Origin: Nitrosococcus wardiae
GTDB lineage: Bacteria; Pseudomonadota; Gammaproteobacteria; Nitrosococcales; Nitrosococcaceae
Direction: 5' to 3'
Assembly (NCBI RefSeq): GCF_004421105.1
Contig: NZ_CP038033.1
Location: 3,057,659-3,121,658, forward strand
Length of the DNA: 64,000 nt
The number at the start of each line of letters is the position of its first letter. Within the stretch, counting starts at the first letter, position 1. A program made the translations under genes and the position numbers. Below, one piece after another: positions 56,599 through 64,000 of this stretch. Under the pieces are notes generated by a model. The model ran no database searches and was not told the origin of the DNA. It saw only the letters and a program-made list of their open reading frames with translations.

Positions 56599-57540
56599 TT
56601 AAAGATTACATAATCCCTTTCCTAAAGCCACCCGCTCAGAGGCAGCGGAGGGAATCTCCCCAAGGCTCTGAATGCGTTGGAGACGAGCCCGCAAGCCAGC
56701 CTTGTTAGCTAATTGAATACTCAGGCCAGGGCGGGCATTAAGCTCCAACATCAAGGGACCCAGCTCCCGATCCAAAACAATATCCACCCCAATATAACCC
56801 AAGCCTACTAAATCAAAACAGCGGGCAGTCAGTTCAAGAATGGCATCCCAATGGGGTATTTCTAACCCCCTTATTCCCCCACCCGTATCCGGATGATGAT
56901 CAATCGCTTGTTCTCGCCATACGCCAGAGCTAGTACGGCCGGTCATCAAATCGATACCGACACCAATAGCCCCTTGGTGTAAATTGGCCCTGCCATCTGA
57001 GAGACGGGTAGGCAGCCGAATCATCGCCAATACCGGTACCCCGCGGAAGACCAGCGTGCGGATATCCGGGACTCCTAAATAACTGACGGCCTCAAATACC
57101 GGATCGAATTTAACCCGATATTCAATAAGGGCAGTGTCAGGCAATCCTCCCAGGCTATACATGCCACTTAAAATATTGGCGATATGATGGCCGATTTCCT
57201 CTTCAGTCAGAATTATCCCGCTGGCCTTACGATAACGCCCCTTGTAGCGTCCAGTCACCACCAAAATCCCTTCACCACCACTGCCATGGGCAGGCTTGAT
57301 GACAAAGTCCTCATGGGGACCGAGAAGCTTATCCAAGCTCCTAATCTGGTGAACTATATCGACGAGGCCATAAAGCTGGGGCACCGCGATTCCCGCGCCT
57401 AAGGCCAATTGCTTGGTTAGTCTCTTATCATCGACCAAGGGATAATGGCGTCGCGGGTTAAAAGGCAAGATATAGTCGGCATTGCGTTGGTTCATCCCTA
57501 GAATGCCAAGCTGCCGTAAACGCCGCCAAGGAAGGATCAT
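56599..57540 (-). CDS. ATP-grasp ligase (RimK-like alpha-L-glutamate ligase-like)
   Basis: A 313-residue ATP-grasp enzyme expected to form an amide or peptide bond with ATP. ATP-grasp features are VIKPAHGSGGEGILVV, the LIEYRVKF segment and metal ligands in GYIGVDIVLDRELGPLMLELNARPGL. The family is annotated as alpha-L-glutamate ligase-like and is found beside an inactive transglutaminase with seven membrane helices. Here its ATG overlaps the stop of that gene by four bases. The substrate is unknown; attachment of glutamate to a protein or peptide is inference. Confidence 0.85.
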   Translation of the reverse strand: MILPWRRLRQLGILGMNQRNADYILPFNPRRHYPLVDDKRLTKQLALGAGIAVPQLYGLVDIVHQIRSLDKLLGPHEDFVIKPAHGSGGEGILVVTGRYKGRYRKASGIILTEEEIGHHIANILSGMYSLGGLPDTALIEYRVKFDPVFEAVSYLGVPDIRTLVFRGVPVLAMIRLPTRLSDGRANLHQGAIGVGIDLMTGRTSSGVWREQAIDHHPDTGGGIRGLEIPHWDAILELTARCFDLVGLGYIGVDIVLDRELGPLMLELNARPGLSIQLANKAGLRARLQRIQSLGEIPSAASERVALGKGLCNL

Positions 57541-59081
57541 CGGGTATCCGTTTTTCTCAAAAATTCCTTAAACCGCCACAGTTCCGTTAGTCGATAACCG
57601 GCATAGCGTCCTACTAACAAAGTCATGGCCAAAACCACCAATAATAATTCAGGAAAAACAAAAACCAGATGCCCTAATAACTTATTGGTCATCAACAAAT
57701 AACTTAATACGGCCACCAAAAGACTCCCCAAGCCTTGTTGCAGTGCTTCCCCGGGACCATGTTCTTCCCACACCAGGGACATACGTTCAATGGCCATGGT
57801 CAAAATCACCATAGGGAAAAGGGCCACAGACAAACCCCGTTCTAACCCTATTTTGTGGGTGAGTACACTAATGACGGCCATTAAGAGAATGACCATTACC
57901 AGTACCGAAGCTAGGCGTGGTACAAGCAGTAATTTAAGGTATTCCAAATAAAAACGCAGTAGCAACCCTAGGGCCACGATTCCCGTAAACAACAGGACTC
58001 CCCAGAGGAGTTCGGTTTCCCGAAACGCCAAGGCTATTAATATGGGCATAAACGTCCCAAAGGTTTTAATGCCAATAATGTTCCGTAGCACCACAATCAA
58101 AAATGCCCCAATGGGGATTAATAAAAGAACCCGGTAAACATTTTGCGTCTGAACAGGAAGGCTAAATAAGGAAAAATCCATAATCATGGAATTAATTTGC
58201 CGTGCCCGTCGTTCCGCCACCAAAACCAACTCTTGAAATTGACTGGAAATGGAATATTCAACCTTGGGTGAACTTCCTCCTTCCAAGTTGATCAGGGGAT
58301 CATTGCCTACATACCAGATCAATGCATTCCCAGGAAATCCTCGGCTTCCAGTTTTGGGATCAAAAGCCAACCACTCCTGGCCATTATGGACTTCCAACCA
58401 CGGAGTCAAGGTACCGTGATTTATGCCATCTTTTAGCTGTAAGAGATGAACGATGCGGGCAGGAATCCGGGCACCCGCCAAGATATAAATAACCCGATCT
58501 ACCCAGGCAGCCGAATCCTCAACACCTTTACGCAGAACCTGAACATTTTCATCAGGGTTAGGGGCATTAAGACGGACCAAAAGCTCCCCCGTGAAGGAAG
58601 CCACATCGGCAGATTTGCGGCGCACCTCGTCCAATAGCGCTTGCACCACTGACCCCATGGGTTCAGGATAATCAGGAACGGCTGGAAATGGAGGAGTAAT
58701 TCCGCTGCGCGCCTTTATCGGAACAGCTACCTCAGGGGCTAATTCAATACGGTAATACAAGACTTGTTTCCCTCGGACCCGGCGCACAGCCCACTGGGCA
58801 ATACGATTAATACCGTTGTCTTCCATGGTCAAGCCATACTTGGTAGAAATGAAATCTTCATCCACCACCGTAAAGCCAAGAGGATTGTTGGGGACATAGA
58901 ACCGAGCTTTCACAGGTTGGTTGCCTTTAGCCTCAAATTCAAGACGGGCCTCCACCATCCAAACTTCGGTTTGTTCAGCCGGTAGTACCGGCAAACCCAG
59001 GCGCGTCACCTTATAATAAGTTACACCTGTCCCAATAATAATGAGAAAAAGGGCAAGGATTTTGACGTGTAAATTCTTCAA
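57537..59081 (-). CDS. inactive transglutaminase-like protein fused to seven membrane helices
   Basis: A 514-residue inner-membrane protein. An N-terminal anchor (ILALFLIIIGTGVTYY) is followed by a periplasmic transglutaminase-like domain of about 300 residues (VEARLEFEAKGNQPVKARFYVPNN to WYVGNDPLINLEGGSS). The Cys-His-Asp catalytic triad is not evident, as expected for the inactive group. About seven hydrophobic helices fill residues 310-495. The likely start is TTG at 59081, since a stop precedes it in frame. It is translationally coupled to the ATP-grasp gene and follows the retropepsin-like protease gene. Confidence 0.83.
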   Translation of the reverse strand: MKNLHVKILALFLIIIGTGVTYYKVTRLGLPVLPAEQTEVWMVEARLEFEAKGNQPVKARFYVPNNPLGFTVVDEDFISTKYGLTMEDNGINRIAQWAVRRVRGKQVLYYRIELAPEVAVPIKARSGITPPFPAVPDYPEPMGSVVQALLDEVRRKSADVASFTGELLVRLNAPNPDENVQVLRKGVEDSAAWVDRVIYILAGARIPARIVHLLQLKDGINHGTLTPWLEVHNGQEWLAFDPKTGSRGFPGNALIWYVGNDPLINLEGGSSPKVEYSISSQFQELVLVAERRARQINSMIMDFSLFSLPVQTQNVYRVLLLIPIGAFLIVVLRNIIGIKTFGTFMPILIALAFRETELLWGVLLFTGIVALGLLLRFYLEYLKLLLVPRLASVLVMVILLMAVISVLTHKIGLERGLSVALFPMVILTMAIERMSLVWEEHGPGEALQQGLGSLLVAVLSYLLMTNKLLGHLVFVFPELLLVVLAMTLLVGRYAGYRLTELWRFKEFLRKTDTR

Positions 59082-59122
59082 ATTTTATTTTCCAATAGAA
59101 GGCTAATCCCAGCGCAAGGGAT

Positions 59123-59713
59123 TTAATTTTGTCGTATTTCGGCTTTTTGATCCGAGGCTTCGTCGGCGGCATATTTTATCAAGCAAGCATCCCATCCTTC
59201 ATTAGTGAGAAAGGTTTTACTGGGATCAATGAGGGCCACATCCTTCAGAAAGCGACGACCCAAAAGGAGGGGGTAATTTAACTGACTGCGATCAACCAAA
59301 CTAAACTGGGTCTCGTAGCTCCTGCCATTTAAACAAAACTTCAAGTTAACTACGGGTCGTCTTTTGGCATTGCCCTTATGTCGTTTTATTCTCACATTAC
59401 GGACCAGTGGCTGCTCCACATGGAGCTGCTCCATCTCTTCCCCTTTCCCCTCCAGCTCAATGATAAAACGCACCCATTCCTCGCCATCTTTCTCAAACCT
59501 TTCAATGTCTTCGGCATGTAATGATGAAGTCTTGGCACCGGAATCTAGCTTTGCTTTAAGCTCGGCCCCCCAGGGAATAAGAGCAACTCGCTCCACCCAT
59601 CCCATGATAATTCGTTCTTTAGCTCCAACGCCTTCACTGCCTGAATTTGCTGCTTCCGATACACCACCCAGTGCCAGCAGCCAGAACACTATTACGCCGC
59701 CAAAACGTTGCAT
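59123..59713 (-). CDS. RimK-associated retropepsin-like protease (ATP-dependent zinc protease family)
   Basis: A small exported aspartic-type protease. From ATG 59713 an export signal (QRFGGVIVFWLLALGGVSEA) leads to a domain with the active-site strand LKAKLDSGAKTSSLHAEDIE, the flap-like region VRNVRIKRHKGNAKRRPVVNLKF and the terminal LLLGRRFLKDVALIDP. The family is labelled ATP-dependent zinc protease in databases but the D-S-G-A signature is retropepsin-like. With the two downstream genes it forms a conserved three-gene set. The residues upstream of 59713 are not needed for the domain. Confidence 0.83.
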   Translation of the reverse strand: MQRFGGVIVFWLLALGGVSEAANSGSEGVGAKERIIMGWVERVALIPWGAELKAKLDSGAKTSSLHAEDIERFEKDGEEWVRFIIELEGKGEEMEQLHVEQPLVRNVRIKRHKGNAKRRPVVNLKFCLNGRSYETQFSLVDRSQLNYPLLLGRRFLKDVALIDPSKTFLTNEGWDACLIKYAADEASDQKAEIRQN

Positions 59714-59798
59714 AGAACTTCTCAACTTTTTTAAATTTAAGAGAGCATAAATCTTAACAAAAAACGACGACATCCACTGTCAAACATTTGAAAACATA

Positions 59799-60173
59799 CT
59801 AATTAATGTTATTAATCATAAAATCCCCTGTTATTAAAAACCTAAATAACGAGGGACTCGGCGCCGTAGGTGCAATAACTCTCTCCAAAACGGGGATAGC
59901 CAATAAATAGTCCTTCAACTGAGGGAAAAAATTTGCAACAAAGGCAGAAATAAAGGCAATCACAGTCAAACTTGTGGGTAACAAAAAGACCAATAACTTG
60001 CGCCCTACAGGCATCCCATGGACTTGCTGCAGAGCCTCTGAAAGCCGTGCTTCCTGGGCTTGTCTCGAAGTCAACAGTTGGTAAGCAGAAGCTTCACTAG
60101 GTACCGGTAGAAAAATCAACTCAGCTAGCATTAACCCGTAAGTGCCTAATATGATGGTCTCGGAAACAGACAT
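59799..60173 (-). CDS. small membrane protein downstream of the CDP-alcohol phosphatidyltransferase gene
   Basis: A 124-residue protein from ATG 60173, ten bases after the stop of the phosphatidyltransferase gene. It has two hydrophobic stretches, at about residues 6-26 (ILGTYGLMLAELIFLPVP) and 60-90 (LLVFLLPTSLTVIAFISAFVANFF), joined by a polar helix. I do not recognise a family. Its position suggests it belongs to the pterin-like cluster. Confidence 0.6.
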   Translation of the reverse strand: MSVSETIILGTYGLMLAELIFLPVPSEASAYQLLTSRQAQEARLSEALQQVHGMPVGRKLLVFLLPTSLTVIAFISAFVANFFPQLKDYLLAIPVLERVIAPTAPSPSLFRFLITGDFMINNIN

Positions 60174-60183
60174 TGCTTTAGCG

Positions 60184-60933
60184 TTAAGATTTTGGAGAGT
60201 GAAGGGAGGGTATGAACCGCTCCCTGAACTGATAGAGAATGTCATCCGCAAAAGAGTAGGTTAGAAAAACCAGAGCCAAAGCACTCAATAAATTTTTTGC
60301 CGGCAAAGCCAAATGGGGTAGCAGATTCGCTAATAGAACGACCTGCGTCGCTGCACAAACAATCCGGCCGCGAAGATTACCTCCGGCTTTAGGCTTGGGA
60401 TCATCTGCGGGGATCGCAAAAACTTCCAACAATAAGACATAGCCATAACGATAAAGAGGAAATAAAAGTAACCACACACCTAAACCTCCCACGGTAACTC
60501 CTAATACCGCTAGCATAAAAACCAGGGCCTGATCGGTTTCAGCATCAAGAATTGCCCCTTGGGGAGTCCCTCCATAGAGGGTAGCAAGGCGTCCATCCAT
60601 CCAATCACCAAAAGAAGCTATGATCATCATGACCAAAACCAGCGCTACCGCCCCGCCGCAGGAGGCTATCATCAAACCTGCGATTCCTACCCAAAACCGA
60701 AGTAACGTCACCCAATCTGCAGGCGTTCGCCAGGCGCGGAGGAAGTAGGCCAAAAAACCATGACTGCCCATAACCCAAAGAGCAGTTAGGACAATGCCAA
60801 AGGCATAGCCAGGGGAAAGCATTTGCAGATAAAATGCTGTCACCGCCAACAGCAAAATGGATATGGACGATTGGAAAATCAAAAACTTGCGATAGCATTT
60901 TCGGGAACTATGATCGAGGTGTTGCTCACTCAT
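60184..60933 (-). CDS. CDP-alcohol phosphatidyltransferase-family membrane enzyme
   Basis: A 249-residue polytopic membrane enzyme. The catalytic signature DGxxAR-x8-G-x3-D-x3-D is present as DWMDGRLATLYGGTPQGAILDAETD: all four Asp residues are kept, but the Arg of AR is Thr and the spacer is about one residue shorter. About six transmembrane helices surround it. The family transfers a phosphoalcohol from a CDP-linked donor to a lipid or sugar alcohol. It is divergent from the reductase/PTPS/glycosyltransferase genes and probably works with them, for instance adding a lipid anchor. This is inference. Confidence 0.83.
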   Translation of the reverse strand: MSEQHLDHSSRKCYRKFLIFQSSISILLLAVTAFYLQMLSPGYAFGIVLTALWVMGSHGFLAYFLRAWRTPADWVTLLRFWVGIAGLMIASCGGAVALVLVMMIIASFGDWMDGRLATLYGGTPQGAILDAETDQALVFMLAVLGVTVGGLGVWLLLFPLYRYGYVLLLEVFAIPADDPKPKAGGNLRGRIVCAATQVVLLANLLPHLALPAKNLLSALALVFLTYSFADDILYQFRERFIPSLHSPKS

Positions 60934-60983
60934 CGTTAAAAACTCACCACTCCAAAATATAAGCGACAGACGATTTTAGAGCT

Positions 60984-62078
60984 ATGGAATGTGCCGTACT
61001 TGACTCCTCGGTCGATGAAATCTGGGAAAGCCTGCTTGATTTTAAGCGTTGGTGCCGAAACGATGTTTCCGCACCAGAGACTCCCTGTGTTTTCTTCTAT
61101 CCCCATGAAAGCGGGGATCAGACCCCCTTATGGCAGTTCACAGCTAATCTTGAAGTGATAGCAAAAATCAAACCCAAGGCGCTTATTGTTGTTTATTTAT
61201 CCGCACCCAAGCCGCCTTATCCCCACTTAGACAACCTAACTTTTGGCCCTATTCCAACGCTGCTCGCCTTCGATCCTTCGGCATTATCTTTCGGCGAATC
61301 GCCGTGGTGCTATTCACGGGGTCCAGCCCTACCCTGCCACCTCCTGACCGCCTTTCGCCTTTACTTACCTTGTCTCACCGGCCATCATATCGCATCCCAA
61401 AACTACTCGCCATGGGTCAGCGGTCACCTGGCACAAACCTTGGACGGTAAAATTGCCGCCGTGAGTGGACATTCCCAGTGGATCAGCAATCATGCCGATC
61501 GCAAGCACGCCCACCGCCTCCGGGCCCTTCATGACGCCGTACTGGTAGGCCGCAGCACCGTAGAAAAAGATAATCCGCGGCTCACGGTGCGTGAAGTTCA
61601 AGGGGAAAACCCTGATCGGGTGGTTCTCGACCGCCACTGCCATTTACTCGCCGGAGAAAAACTCTACCGGATCTTCCATGAACCGGGAAACAATTGGTTA
61701 CTCCATTCCAGCAGTCTCGATAAAGTCAAGGAACGCTACCCTATTCCCGAAAAAGTCACGCCGTTGCCGATAAGAGACAAAGAATGTGGTAATAATAGCA
61801 AAATCATGGACTTGAAGGCTGTCTTAGAGACGATGTGGGCCATAGGAATACGTTCCGTCTTTGTTGAAGGCGGAGGGAAAACCCTCTCCCTTTTCCTCGC
61901 AGCGGGACGTACGGATCTGCTTCATCTTCATATTGCACCGCTGCTGCTGGGCTCCGGCTTGCCCTCATTCCAGTTACCTCCTGTCGACCGTATCCAAGAG
62001 GGAACCTATTTTCATATGACCCACTTCTATCTCGATAAGGAAATATTATTGGAATGCCTGCCTCGCCACCGACCCTAG
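60984..62078 (+). CDS. RibD C-terminal-type reductase with an extra N-terminal domain
   Basis: A 364-residue protein. The C-terminal half (about 135-364) is a RibD-C/DHFR-fold reductase: SGHLAQTLDGKIAA, HAHRLRALHDAVLVGRSTVEKDNPRLTVR, and VFVEGGGKTLSLFLAAG. Such domains reduce pyrimidines in riboflavin synthesis or pterins in methanopterin synthesis with NADPH. The first about 135 residues are an additional domain that resembles nothing I know, with FFYPHESGDQTPLWQF and PPYPHLDNLTF. No deaminase domain is present, unlike true RibD. It starts a coupled operon with the dehydrogenase gene, which overlaps its end by 25 bp. Confidence 0.82.
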   Translation: MECAVLDSSVDEIWESLLDFKRWCRNDVSAPETPCVFFYPHESGDQTPLWQFTANLEVIAKIKPKALIVVYLSAPKPPYPHLDNLTFGPIPTLLAFDPSALSFGESPWCYSRGPALPCHLLTAFRLYLPCLTGHHIASQNYSPWVSGHLAQTLDGKIAAVSGHSQWISNHADRKHAHRLRALHDAVLVGRSTVEKDNPRLTVREVQGENPDRVVLDRHCHLLAGEKLYRIFHEPGNNWLLHSSSLDKVKERYPIPEKVTPLPIRDKECGNNSKIMDLKAVLETMWAIGIRSVFVEGGGKTLSLFLAAGRTDLLHLHIAPLLLGSGLPSFQLPPVDRIQEGTYFHMTHFYLDKEILLECLPRHRP

Positions 62079-63085
62079 TTCCCTCTAACACCCGGGCCTA
62101 CTGGGTCGAAATGCCGGGGAGGGGTTCCATTCGCCAGGAATCGCTTTCTTTACCGGCACCGGAGGGTCATAGCCTCATCGAAACCTGGGTAACGGGCATC
62201 AGCCCTGGAACGGAGAGATTAGTGGGATTAGGGCACGTGCCTCCTGAGTGCTGGAGCACCATGGAGTGCCCGTCCATGGGAGGCTCATTTGAGCTGCCGG
62301 TTAAATATGGGTATTGCCTGGTGGGCCAGGCCATTAACGGCCCTTATGCTGGCCGGCGGGTCTTCACCATGCATCCCCACCAAAATTACGCCATCATCCC
62401 GGACGATCGACTGCTGCCGCTGCCGGAAGATTTTCTTCCCCTGCGGGCCACCCTGATCCCCAACATGGAAACCGCCCTGAACGCCATCTGGGATAGTGAA
62501 TACCAACCTCCGGTGCCCGTTGCCATCGTCGGAGGGGGGATGGTGGGACTGCTCATTGCTTTTTTGCTCAAAACTGCCTGGGACAGCCAGCCTGTGATTA
62601 TTGAAATTGACAAGCAGCGCCGGCAATTGATTGAAGAACTAGGATGGGGGCTCACTACCCTTGACCCCCAGGCCTCTCCCCGGGAGGCTTTTTCCCTATG
62701 CTTTCATAGCTCGGGGCAAGGCTCAGGACTGCAAACGGCGTTAGACAGTGTGGGTTTTGAGGGTCGGGTCATCGAAGTAAGCTGGTTAGGCCATCGCCCC
62801 GTATCCCTCCATCTCGGCGGTTCTTTCCATTTCCAACGGAAACAGATTCTTTCCTCTCAAGTGAGCACGATTGCCAAATCCAAGCGGGGGCATCTAACTC
62901 ACCAACAGCGTTTAGAACAGGTCCTAGTGCATTTGCAAAATCCACTGCTGGATGCTCTCATTTCACAAATCATTAAATTTGATCATCTACCCCTTTTTAT
63001 GCAGCAACTCTACCATAAAAACCCAGACGGCTTTTCTTTTGCCGTTATTTACCGTCCCTTTGAGCATTACTTTCAGAAAACTTAA
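62054..63085 (+). CDS. zinc-free medium-chain dehydrogenase (BchC-like)
   Basis: A 343-residue MDR-superfamily protein. The N-terminal catalytic domain contains the WVTGISPGTERLVGLG block seen in BchC (2-desacetyl-2-hydroxyethyl bacteriochlorophyllide dehydrogenase) and relatives. The Rossmann domain has VAIVGGGMVGLLIAFLLK. A catalytic zinc Cys is not evident in the usual position. BchC itself is improbable because no bacteriochlorophyll genes are present; a dehydrogenase on a side chain is more likely. The start ATG 62054 lies inside the end of the preceding gene. Confidence 0.78.
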   Translation: MPASPPTLVPSNTRAYWVEMPGRGSIRQESLSLPAPEGHSLIETWVTGISPGTERLVGLGHVPPECWSTMECPSMGGSFELPVKYGYCLVGQAINGPYAGRRVFTMHPHQNYAIIPDDRLLPLPEDFLPLRATLIPNMETALNAIWDSEYQPPVPVAIVGGGMVGLLIAFLLKTAWDSQPVIIEIDKQRRQLIEELGWGLTTLDPQASPREAFSLCFHSSGQGSGLQTALDSVGFEGRVIEVSWLGHRPVSLHLGGSFHFQRKQILSSQVSTIAKSKRGHLTHQQRLEQVLVHLQNPLLDALISQIIKFDHLPLFMQQLYHKNPDGFSFAVIYRPFEHYFQKT

Positions 63086-63099
63086 TTTTTTTTGTACTT

Positions 63100-63480
63100 A
63101 TGTATGCCATTGCCGTTAAAGACCATTTTATGATTGCCCACAGTTTGCAAGGAGAAGTTTTTGGCCCCGCGCAAAAGCTTCATGGCGCCACCTATAATGT
63201 GACCGCCGAGTTTCGTACCGAGAGACTCAGCCAGGATGGCATAGTCATTGACATCGGCCTGGCTCTCAATGCCCTAAAAGCCGTCCTGGCCTTGCTTAAC
63301 TATAAAAACCTGGATGAAGAAGAGCCCTTCCGTGGCGTTAATACCACCACCGAATACTTGGCTCACTATATTCACGGCCAACTTGCCAAACGGGTACGGG
63401 ACTCTTTCCAGGGAACACTGAAAATTACCCTGGAAGAAAGCCATGTGGCCAGGGGCTCCTACGAGGGAACGGTCACTTGA
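63100..63480 (+). CDS. 6-pyruvoyltetrahydropterin synthase-like protein lacking catalytic residues
   Basis: A 126-residue member of the PTPS/QueD fold. The first zinc ligand is His14 (AHSL) and the second His28 in KLHGA; the third His of the HGH motif is Ala30. The catalytic Cys four residues before LHG (E. coli QueD Cys27) is Ala, and the LDH dyad is LDE. The fold glutamate in LEES near the C-terminus is kept. So the protein is unlikely to act as a standard PTPS or queuosine-pathway enzyme. It lies between a dehydrogenase gene and a glycosyltransferase gene, all on the plus strand. Confidence 0.85.
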   Translation: MYAIAVKDHFMIAHSLQGEVFGPAQKLHGATYNVTAEFRTERLSQDGIVIDIGLALNALKAVLALLNYKNLDEEEPFRGVNTTTEYLAHYIHGQLAKRVRDSFQGTLKITLEESHVARGSYEGTVT

Positions 63481-63483
63481 ACC

Positions 63484-64000
63484 ATGATTTACCTAATGGC
63501 GCCCGCGCCTAAAGCCCGCGTTTCTGGAGGATTCCGGGTCAATGAGGCCCTGTGCCAACGTCTCACCGCCACGGGAGCCGGGGTCGGCATTCATGCTGAT
63601 GCCGAAGACATACCCGCTAAGATCCAATTCCTCCCCTCCACCGCACCGGCCCATATTGTCCTGGATAGTCTTTACCTTACTGACCTCAATCCAGTTCGCC
63701 TAAATCATGCCCTTGCCAAAAGAGACACCCCAACCCGTCTTTATTTTTTGCTCCATTTTCTACCCTGCATGGACCCTGTTCTTTCTGCTACAACACGGAA
63801 AGCCTTGCAAGAAAAAGAACGCTACTTATTTACCTTGGCAGATGGGGTACTTGTCCCCGGTTCTATCCTAGCCGATTATTTGAAAAATGAATCTTTATAC
63901 ACTGGCACTATTTATCATTGCCCTCCCGGCATTGAGTTTACCGAACTGGATACCGCCCCATCTGATCTCTGGAATAAGGATCCTTTCCCCCGATTAATAA
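63484..64000 (+). CDS. GT4-type glycosyltransferase, 5' part (runs off the window)
   Basis: The frame begins at ATG 63484, 3 bp after the PTPS-like stop, and stays open to the right edge, so 172 residues are visible. The N-terminus MIYLMAPAPKARVSGGFRVNEALCQRL is the family GT4 start with the glycine-rich loop; HIVLDSLYLTD and YFLLHFLPCMDP follow, and IYHCPPGIEFTEL marks the expected donor-domain entry. The sugar donor and acceptor are unknown. It probably glycosylates the product of the preceding pterin-like genes. Confidence 0.8.
   Translation, partial: MIYLMAPAPKARVSGGFRVNEALCQRLTATGAGVGIHADAEDIPAKIQFLPSTAPAHIVLDSLYLTDLNPVRLNHALAKRDTPTRLYFLLHFLPCMDPVLSATTRKALQEKERYLFTLADGVLVPGSILADYLKNESLYTGTIYHCPPGIEFTELDTAPSDLWNKDPFPRLI

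Follow-up and report, generated by a model that had tools for sequence, protein, structure and literature searches.

The analysed stretch of DNA, called the window below, covers 64,000 nucleotides (positions 3057659-3121658) of the complete 4.02 Mb Nitrosococcus wardiae genome. Near its end, two minus-strand genes for a CDP-alcohol phosphatidyltransferase (CDP-OH) and a small membrane protein diverge from a plus-strand series encoding a RibD_C reductase, an MDR dehydrogenase, a PTPS-like protein and a GT4 glycosyltransferase:

59799-60173, minus strand: small membrane protein; best start an inner ATG, about 124 residues with two estimated transmembrane stretches
60184-60933, minus strand: CDP-alcohol phosphatidyltransferase family membrane enzyme (PF01066, CDP-OH_P_transf, 43.5 bits)
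60934-60983: divergent intergenic region, 50 nt
60984-62078, plus strand: RibD_C (pyrimidine/pterin-type) reductase (PF01872, 125.7 bits, residues 143-335), preceded by an N-terminal, non-deaminase domain of about 140 residues
62054-63085, plus strand: MDR-superfamily dehydrogenase, BchC-like, without zinc ligands (no Pfam match; weak BchC match)
63100-63480, plus strand: PTPS-IV (SCO6650-type) T-fold protein (PF01242, 85.9 bits; FGPAQ signature)
63484-64000 (window part), plus strand: GT4 glycosyltransferase (PF00534, Glycos_transf_1, 80.9 bits); whole gene L003:4543-5592, 349 residues
L003:5707-6579, minus strand: methyltransferase (MT), beyond the window, after the GT4 gene and convergent with it

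All six open reading frames lie where a sequence-only reading of this DNA had placed them, and the domains it named (CDP-OH_P_transf, RibD_C, PTPS and Glycos_transf_1) were recovered. The overlaps and tiny gaps it described measure 25 nt for the overlap of the RibD_C and MDR genes, 14 nt between MDR and PTPS and 3 nt between PTPS and GT4; the small membrane ORF starts 10 nt from the CDP-OH gene, and the 50-nt divergent region is a candidate shared promoter region. As that reading also expected, the cluster runs past the window, with the GT4 gene ending 533 nt beyond it (L003:5592) and the methyltransferase gene following.

A PTPS-IV protein in a conserved gene neighbourhood

From its sequence, the PTPS-like protein of the window is assigned to PTPS-IV and not to QueD, because it carries the FGPAQ signature and matches SCO6650 of Streptomyces coelicolor, for which a crystal structure is on record (3d7j; 132 bits, E 7e-38). 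The FGPAQ motif, published as the PTPS-IV signature (PMC5445326), is invariant as F21-G22-P23-A24-Q25 in 19/19 aligned PTPS-IV sequences, as are H14, H28 and E113, while HGH is replaced by HGA and there is no catalytic Cys; signature, lost catalytic residues and conserved E113 are all shared with SCO6650. QueD (PTPS-I) belongs to the same T-fold family but carries CxxxHGH where the window protein has AQxxHGA (AQKLHGA), and the QueD model scores 40.7 bits against it, under the cut-off of 89. The genome's true QueD (CRRMHGH) lies at another locus, adjoining FolE2. With the wrong PTPS signature, the queuosine pathway is ruled out.

That PF00925 (GCHII) and PF01872 (RibD_C) occur near PTPS-IV was already noted in 2017 (PMC5445326); in the window RibD_C is adjacent and GCHII is not local, yet the latter is found in 45/77 homologous loci. 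The subfamily, its signature, this GCHII/RibD_C neighbourhood (PMC5445326, PMC5041015) and the 3d7j structure precede us, which makes the term undescribed, as the sequence-only reading had it, too strong; literature searches on a pathway with the full gene set, on lipid-linked pterins and on PTPS-IV gave only these two papers, and neither the full set nor its pathway was found described. One of them cites an unpublished claim that PTPS-IV plays a role in cofactor F420 biosynthesis (PMC5041015). The complete genome contains no CofH/FO synthase (TIGR03551), which excludes F420 here, and the GT4, MT, CDP-OH and MDR partners are not F420 genes, leaving such a role for PTPS-IV highly improbable.

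A contig scan yielded more than 580 PTPS-IV relatives, and the best 80 of them, taken for locus analysis, fall in Cyanobacteriota, Planctomycetota, Spirochaetota, Bacteroidota, Pseudomonadota, Gemmatimonadota, Actinomycetota and Acidobacteriota. Counts were made on the 77 loci in which the PTPS gene is flanked by 6 kb or more in each direction; they represent seven phyla, Spirochaetota being present only as a cut locus, and all their frames were searched with HMMs derived from members of the cluster families. MDR was found in 77/77, GT4 in 76/77 and methyltransferase in 73/77, and 73/77 loci have the arrangement MDR-PTPS-GT4 along a single strand; recurring partners were CDP-OH (49), a PF03706 flippase-like protein (45), GCHII (45), RibD_C (42) and creatininase (37), counts that are not independent events, many of the loci being from closely related Streptomyces. 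In the common layout CDP-OH diverges from MDR-PTPS-GT4-MT-PF03706, followed by RibD_C, creatininase and GCHII. The partners predicted by the sequence-only reading (a GTP cyclohydrolase, creatininase and methyltransferase) are therefore all present in homologous loci, and the co-occurrence check it proposed finds the genes staying together, with no scattering.

Among 19 QueD-type control regions none carried MDR, MT, CDP-OH, GCHII, PF03706 or creatininase; GT4 occurred in two and RibD_C in two, both of the latter being complete RibD genes. Training of the HMMs on cluster members tilts this comparison in favour of the cluster, while the fixed gene order is independent of it. Two kinds of gene fusion link the cluster enzymes directly: GT4-GCHII as a single ORF in a Planctomycetota MAG (L055:10360-12048), and GCHII, the N-terminal domain and RibD_C as a single ORF in Nostoc/Scytonema (L053:7239-8987, also L054 and L083). 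A chance grouping of the genes, for which nothing speaks beyond the absence of a demonstrated product, is rejected by the QueD-region controls and the synteny and, given also the fusions, has a next to negligible probability. The cluster is a real, widely conserved and uncharacterised pathway, of which the PTPS subfamily and part of the neighbourhood had been noted before. Genes whose order has been preserved in no fewer than eight phyla, among them those of Streptomyces and Nostoc, must make something useful; here, enzymes from the start of riboflavin synthesis are combined with a protein of pterin-binding type, a transferase for sugars and enzymes of lipid type.

The oxidoreductases and membrane enzymes

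The D, R, D, R and E residues of the RibD_C domain, to which catalytic and phosphate-binding roles are assigned from general knowledge of RibG, show conservation of 98% or more throughout the cluster family, the window protein included. No zinc deaminase motif (HAE...PCxxC) is found in residues 1-140 of the window protein, whose predicted structure (mean pLDDT 73.5) is closest to RibG and to archaeal reductases, the latter acting on undeaminated substrate. The N-terminal domain, which the sequence-only reading had called novel, is common to cluster homologues in Nostoc and Bacteroidota; it occupies the place of the RibD deaminase domain but lacks its zinc motif. It may be a vestigial RibD deaminase: a VIA-align alignment to RibG spans the domain (284 residues, rmsd 5.7, Z 21.4) and its predicted order of strands and helices fits, but hhalign gives no sequence support (probability 0). 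With the riboflavin enzymes RibA and RibD the cluster family shares GCHII and RibD_C reductase chemistry and the RibD_C catalytic residues, but the window protein differs from RibD in having no deaminase motif, and a separate, complete housekeeping RibD with its deaminase lies at 2346 kb of the genome.

In the MDR protein the likeness to BchC noted by the earlier reading is weak, its 51 bits against the equivalog model falling far under the cut-off of 291. The cluster MDR proteins have an invariant G86-Y87 where zinc-dependent MDR has G-H, and Ser replaces Cys, so that the catalytic zinc ligands (Cys; GHE) of the sorbitol dehydrogenase type are missing. The best matches of its confident structural model (pLDDT 92.8) are dehydrogenases of polyols and secondary alcohols, at superfamily level only, among them TarJ, which interconverts ribulose-5-phosphate and ribitol-5-phosphate.

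The CDP-OH protein of the window retains every Asp and Gly of the D-x2-D-G-x2-A-R-x8-G-x3-D-x3-D motif, AR reading AT, and the catalytic Asp/Gly motif is intact in all 61 cluster homologues as well. Orthologues of the small membrane protein occur in the genus (L153-L155, 52-73% identity), and the family also adjoins the CDP-OH gene in the Planctomycetota locus L055. In Pseudomonadota loci (e.g. L039:10552-12501) the place upstream of MDR that elsewhere belongs to the CDP-alcohol gene is often taken by a gene for a large membrane GT2-type glycosyltransferase. Clusters of Cyanobacteriota (L053:11437-12258), Gemmatimonadota (L061:14865-15797) and Pseudomonadota (L045:6418-7164) repeatedly include an FkbM-type methyltransferase.

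A proposed route to a glycosylated, pterin-like product

The sequence-only reading had proposed a modified pterin, glycosylated and possibly membrane-anchored. Gene co-occurrence and the predicted partners support it in part; the gene set, its order, conservation, selection and residue patterns are observed, while the product and every chemical step are what we infer. A glycosylated, membrane-associated, pterin-like product is the best inference, with about an even chance of being right, and our preferred reading, at similar odds, is a GCHII-type route to such a metabolite, probably exported or lipid-linked. In outline, a pathway spread patchily over many phyla would turn a GCHII product into a pterin-like (2-amino-4-oxo-pyrimidine-derived) molecule that is glycosylated, in many species methylated, and moved to or anchored in the membrane. 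GCHII would open GTP to 2,5-diamino-6-ribosylamino-pyrimidinone phosphate or, in Streptomyces-type clusters, to a formyl intermediate that creatininase would deformylate; RibD_C would reduce ribosylamino to ribitylamino without deamination, keeping the 2-amino group of a pterin; and the zinc-less MDR enzyme would oxidise a side-chain alcohol. PTPS-IV may then bind the pterin ring and alter its side chain, GT4 would add a sugar, one or more methyltransferases would modify the molecule, and the CDP-alcohol enzyme, with the PF03706 protein in other genomes, would attach or flip a lipid-linked form.

Were the oxidation at C2', closure with the 5-amino group could give 7,8-dihydroneopterin phosphate and bypass GTP cyclohydrolase I, a ring-closure route that we think unlikely. 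Equally speculative is its wider form, in which pterins would be made from GTP cyclohydrolase II and not I, RibD_C and MDR together effecting an Amadori shift to the dihydroneopterin ring, followed by glycosylation and lipid linkage to give a membrane pterin in many phyla.

Several observations are consistent with a pterin-like product: the coherence of the cluster in seven phyla and in the cut Spirochaetota locus, set against QueD regions devoid of the cluster families; the GT4-GCHII and GCHII-X-RibD_C fusions; a RibD_C protein that keeps its reductase residues, lacks the deaminase motif and has reductases of undeaminated substrates among its structural matches; retention of H14, H28 and E113 in PTPS-IV despite HGA and the lost catalytic Cys; the CDP-OH motif, intact in all homologues; and dN/dS values of 0.05-0.25. 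The resemblance of the MDR model to polyol dehydrogenases, TarJ included, points the same way but is a superfamily-level match. Counting against such a product, CDP-OH and PF03706 proteins are limited to about 60% of loci.

The cyclohydrolase step brings evidence on both sides. In the alignment column that appears to correspond to E. coli RibA Tyr105, the residue is Tyr in all 22 GCHII proteins from RibD_C loci and in the Planctomycetota fusion, Met in 20 Streptomyces and His in 7 other actinomycetes; all 27 loci of the Met/His type, which belong to one phylum, carry creatininase and lack RibD_C. In SCO6655, a FAPy-forming GCHII, Met at the catalytic Tyr position reportedly halts the reaction at the formyl intermediate. 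The apparent tracking of RibD_C presence by this residue split is a lead in favour of the pterin-like product and a directly testable link. Against that product, RibD_C is not within reach in 26 actinomycete loci, so that the second step is not universal, and six loci hold creatininase together with RibD_C and a Tyr-type GCHII. Creatininase may have another role in these six, because a deformylase should be unneeded beside a Tyr-type GCHII; the cluster creatininase is also closer to MftE and creatininase than to ArfB.

The N. wardiae genome itself also weighs against the pterin-like product, with no GCHII in the window's cluster and no creatininase in the complete genome. Its sole GCHII domain, in a RibBX-like protein (G000:C1:2348678-2349157, L034), retains just one of three zinc cysteines, a loss repeated in the genus loci L177-L179 and similar in L176 and L180. 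Archaeal-type GCH III was considered as a substitute and rejected, the complete genome containing none.

A second possibility, which we hold doubtful though somewhat less so than the dihydroneopterin routes, is that the ribityl chain is retained and the product is a ribitylaminopyrimidine- or 8-ribityl-pteridine-type (flavin-like) lipid or cofactor, the CDP-alcohol enzyme coupling a ribitol-type alcohol or phosphate to lipid. RibD_C with GCHII would yield a ribityl phosphate, polyols can be substrates of CDP-alcohol enzymes, and the housekeeping RibD with its deaminase is present; but the T-fold protein of pterin-binding type is the most constant part of the cluster, and no recurrent lumazine- or riboflavin-synthase-like family appears among the identified conserved neighbours. 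The recurrence of GT4, CDP-OH, the PF03706 protein, the GT2 membrane enzyme and the FkbM methyltransferase could instead mean that the pathway is aimed at its sugar/lipid part, a glycolipid or polysaccharide precursor, and that the pyrimidine-type enzymes make just a small head group or redox helper; this we consider improbable, as the invariant core is MDR-PTPS-GT4 and the lipid-type genes vary.

A pterin-like product, if confirmed, would add to the pterins a new class that may be membrane-anchored and redox-active, and would assign a role to SCO6650 and the enzymes encoded beside it, which have been orphans since about 2006-2008. By the gene order in the Streptomyces tendae locus L077, whose PTPS is 98% identical to 3d7j, SCO6650 to SCO6655 would be PTPS, GT4, MT, PF03706, creatininase and GCHII. 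MDR, GT4, MT, the flippase-like protein, creatininase and GCHII surround PTPS-IV of the cluster family in SCO6650-type neighbourhoods, whereas the window version has a local RibD_C with its N-terminal domain, and GCHII, creatininase and PF03706 genes are missing from its cluster.

Glycosylation of a pterin by a GT4-like glycosyltransferase would be shared with the pterin glycosides of cyanobacteria and Chlorobium, for which BGluT is a GT4 enzyme, but those begin from GTP cyclohydrolase I and tetrahydrobiopterin, and we know of no RibD_C, PTPS-IV, CDP-OH or flippase-like gene for them. These glycosides are biopterin glucoside and cyanopterin, and their glycosyltransferases BGluT and CtPGT (PMC5683033, PMC13259868).

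Distribution and selection in the genus

At 44% identity or more, PTPS-IV occurs in 19/299 sampled genomes of the phylum Pseudomonadota, the window's own included. Its presence in 4/4 genomes of the genus and in 0/35 other genomes searched of the family and order, where only QueD-like matches below 30% identity were found, suggests that the cluster was transferred or lost as a block. The CDP-OH, membrane protein, RibD_C, MDR, PTPS and GT4 genes are syntenic in three other species of the genus; the methyltransferase is found in one of the three, about 4 kb from GT4, and was not found within the examined regions of the other two. The dN/dS values of the five core genes, 0.05-0.25 across the genus, indicate purifying selection and hence that these genes are in use. 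Directly beside the cluster, at 56599-59773 of the window, lie genes for an RloA3-like retropepsin, an RloB-like inactive-transglutaminase membrane protein and a RimK-related ATP-grasp protein, a set that is syntenic across the genus, RloA, RloB and the RimK-related gene adjoining the cluster in the same three species.
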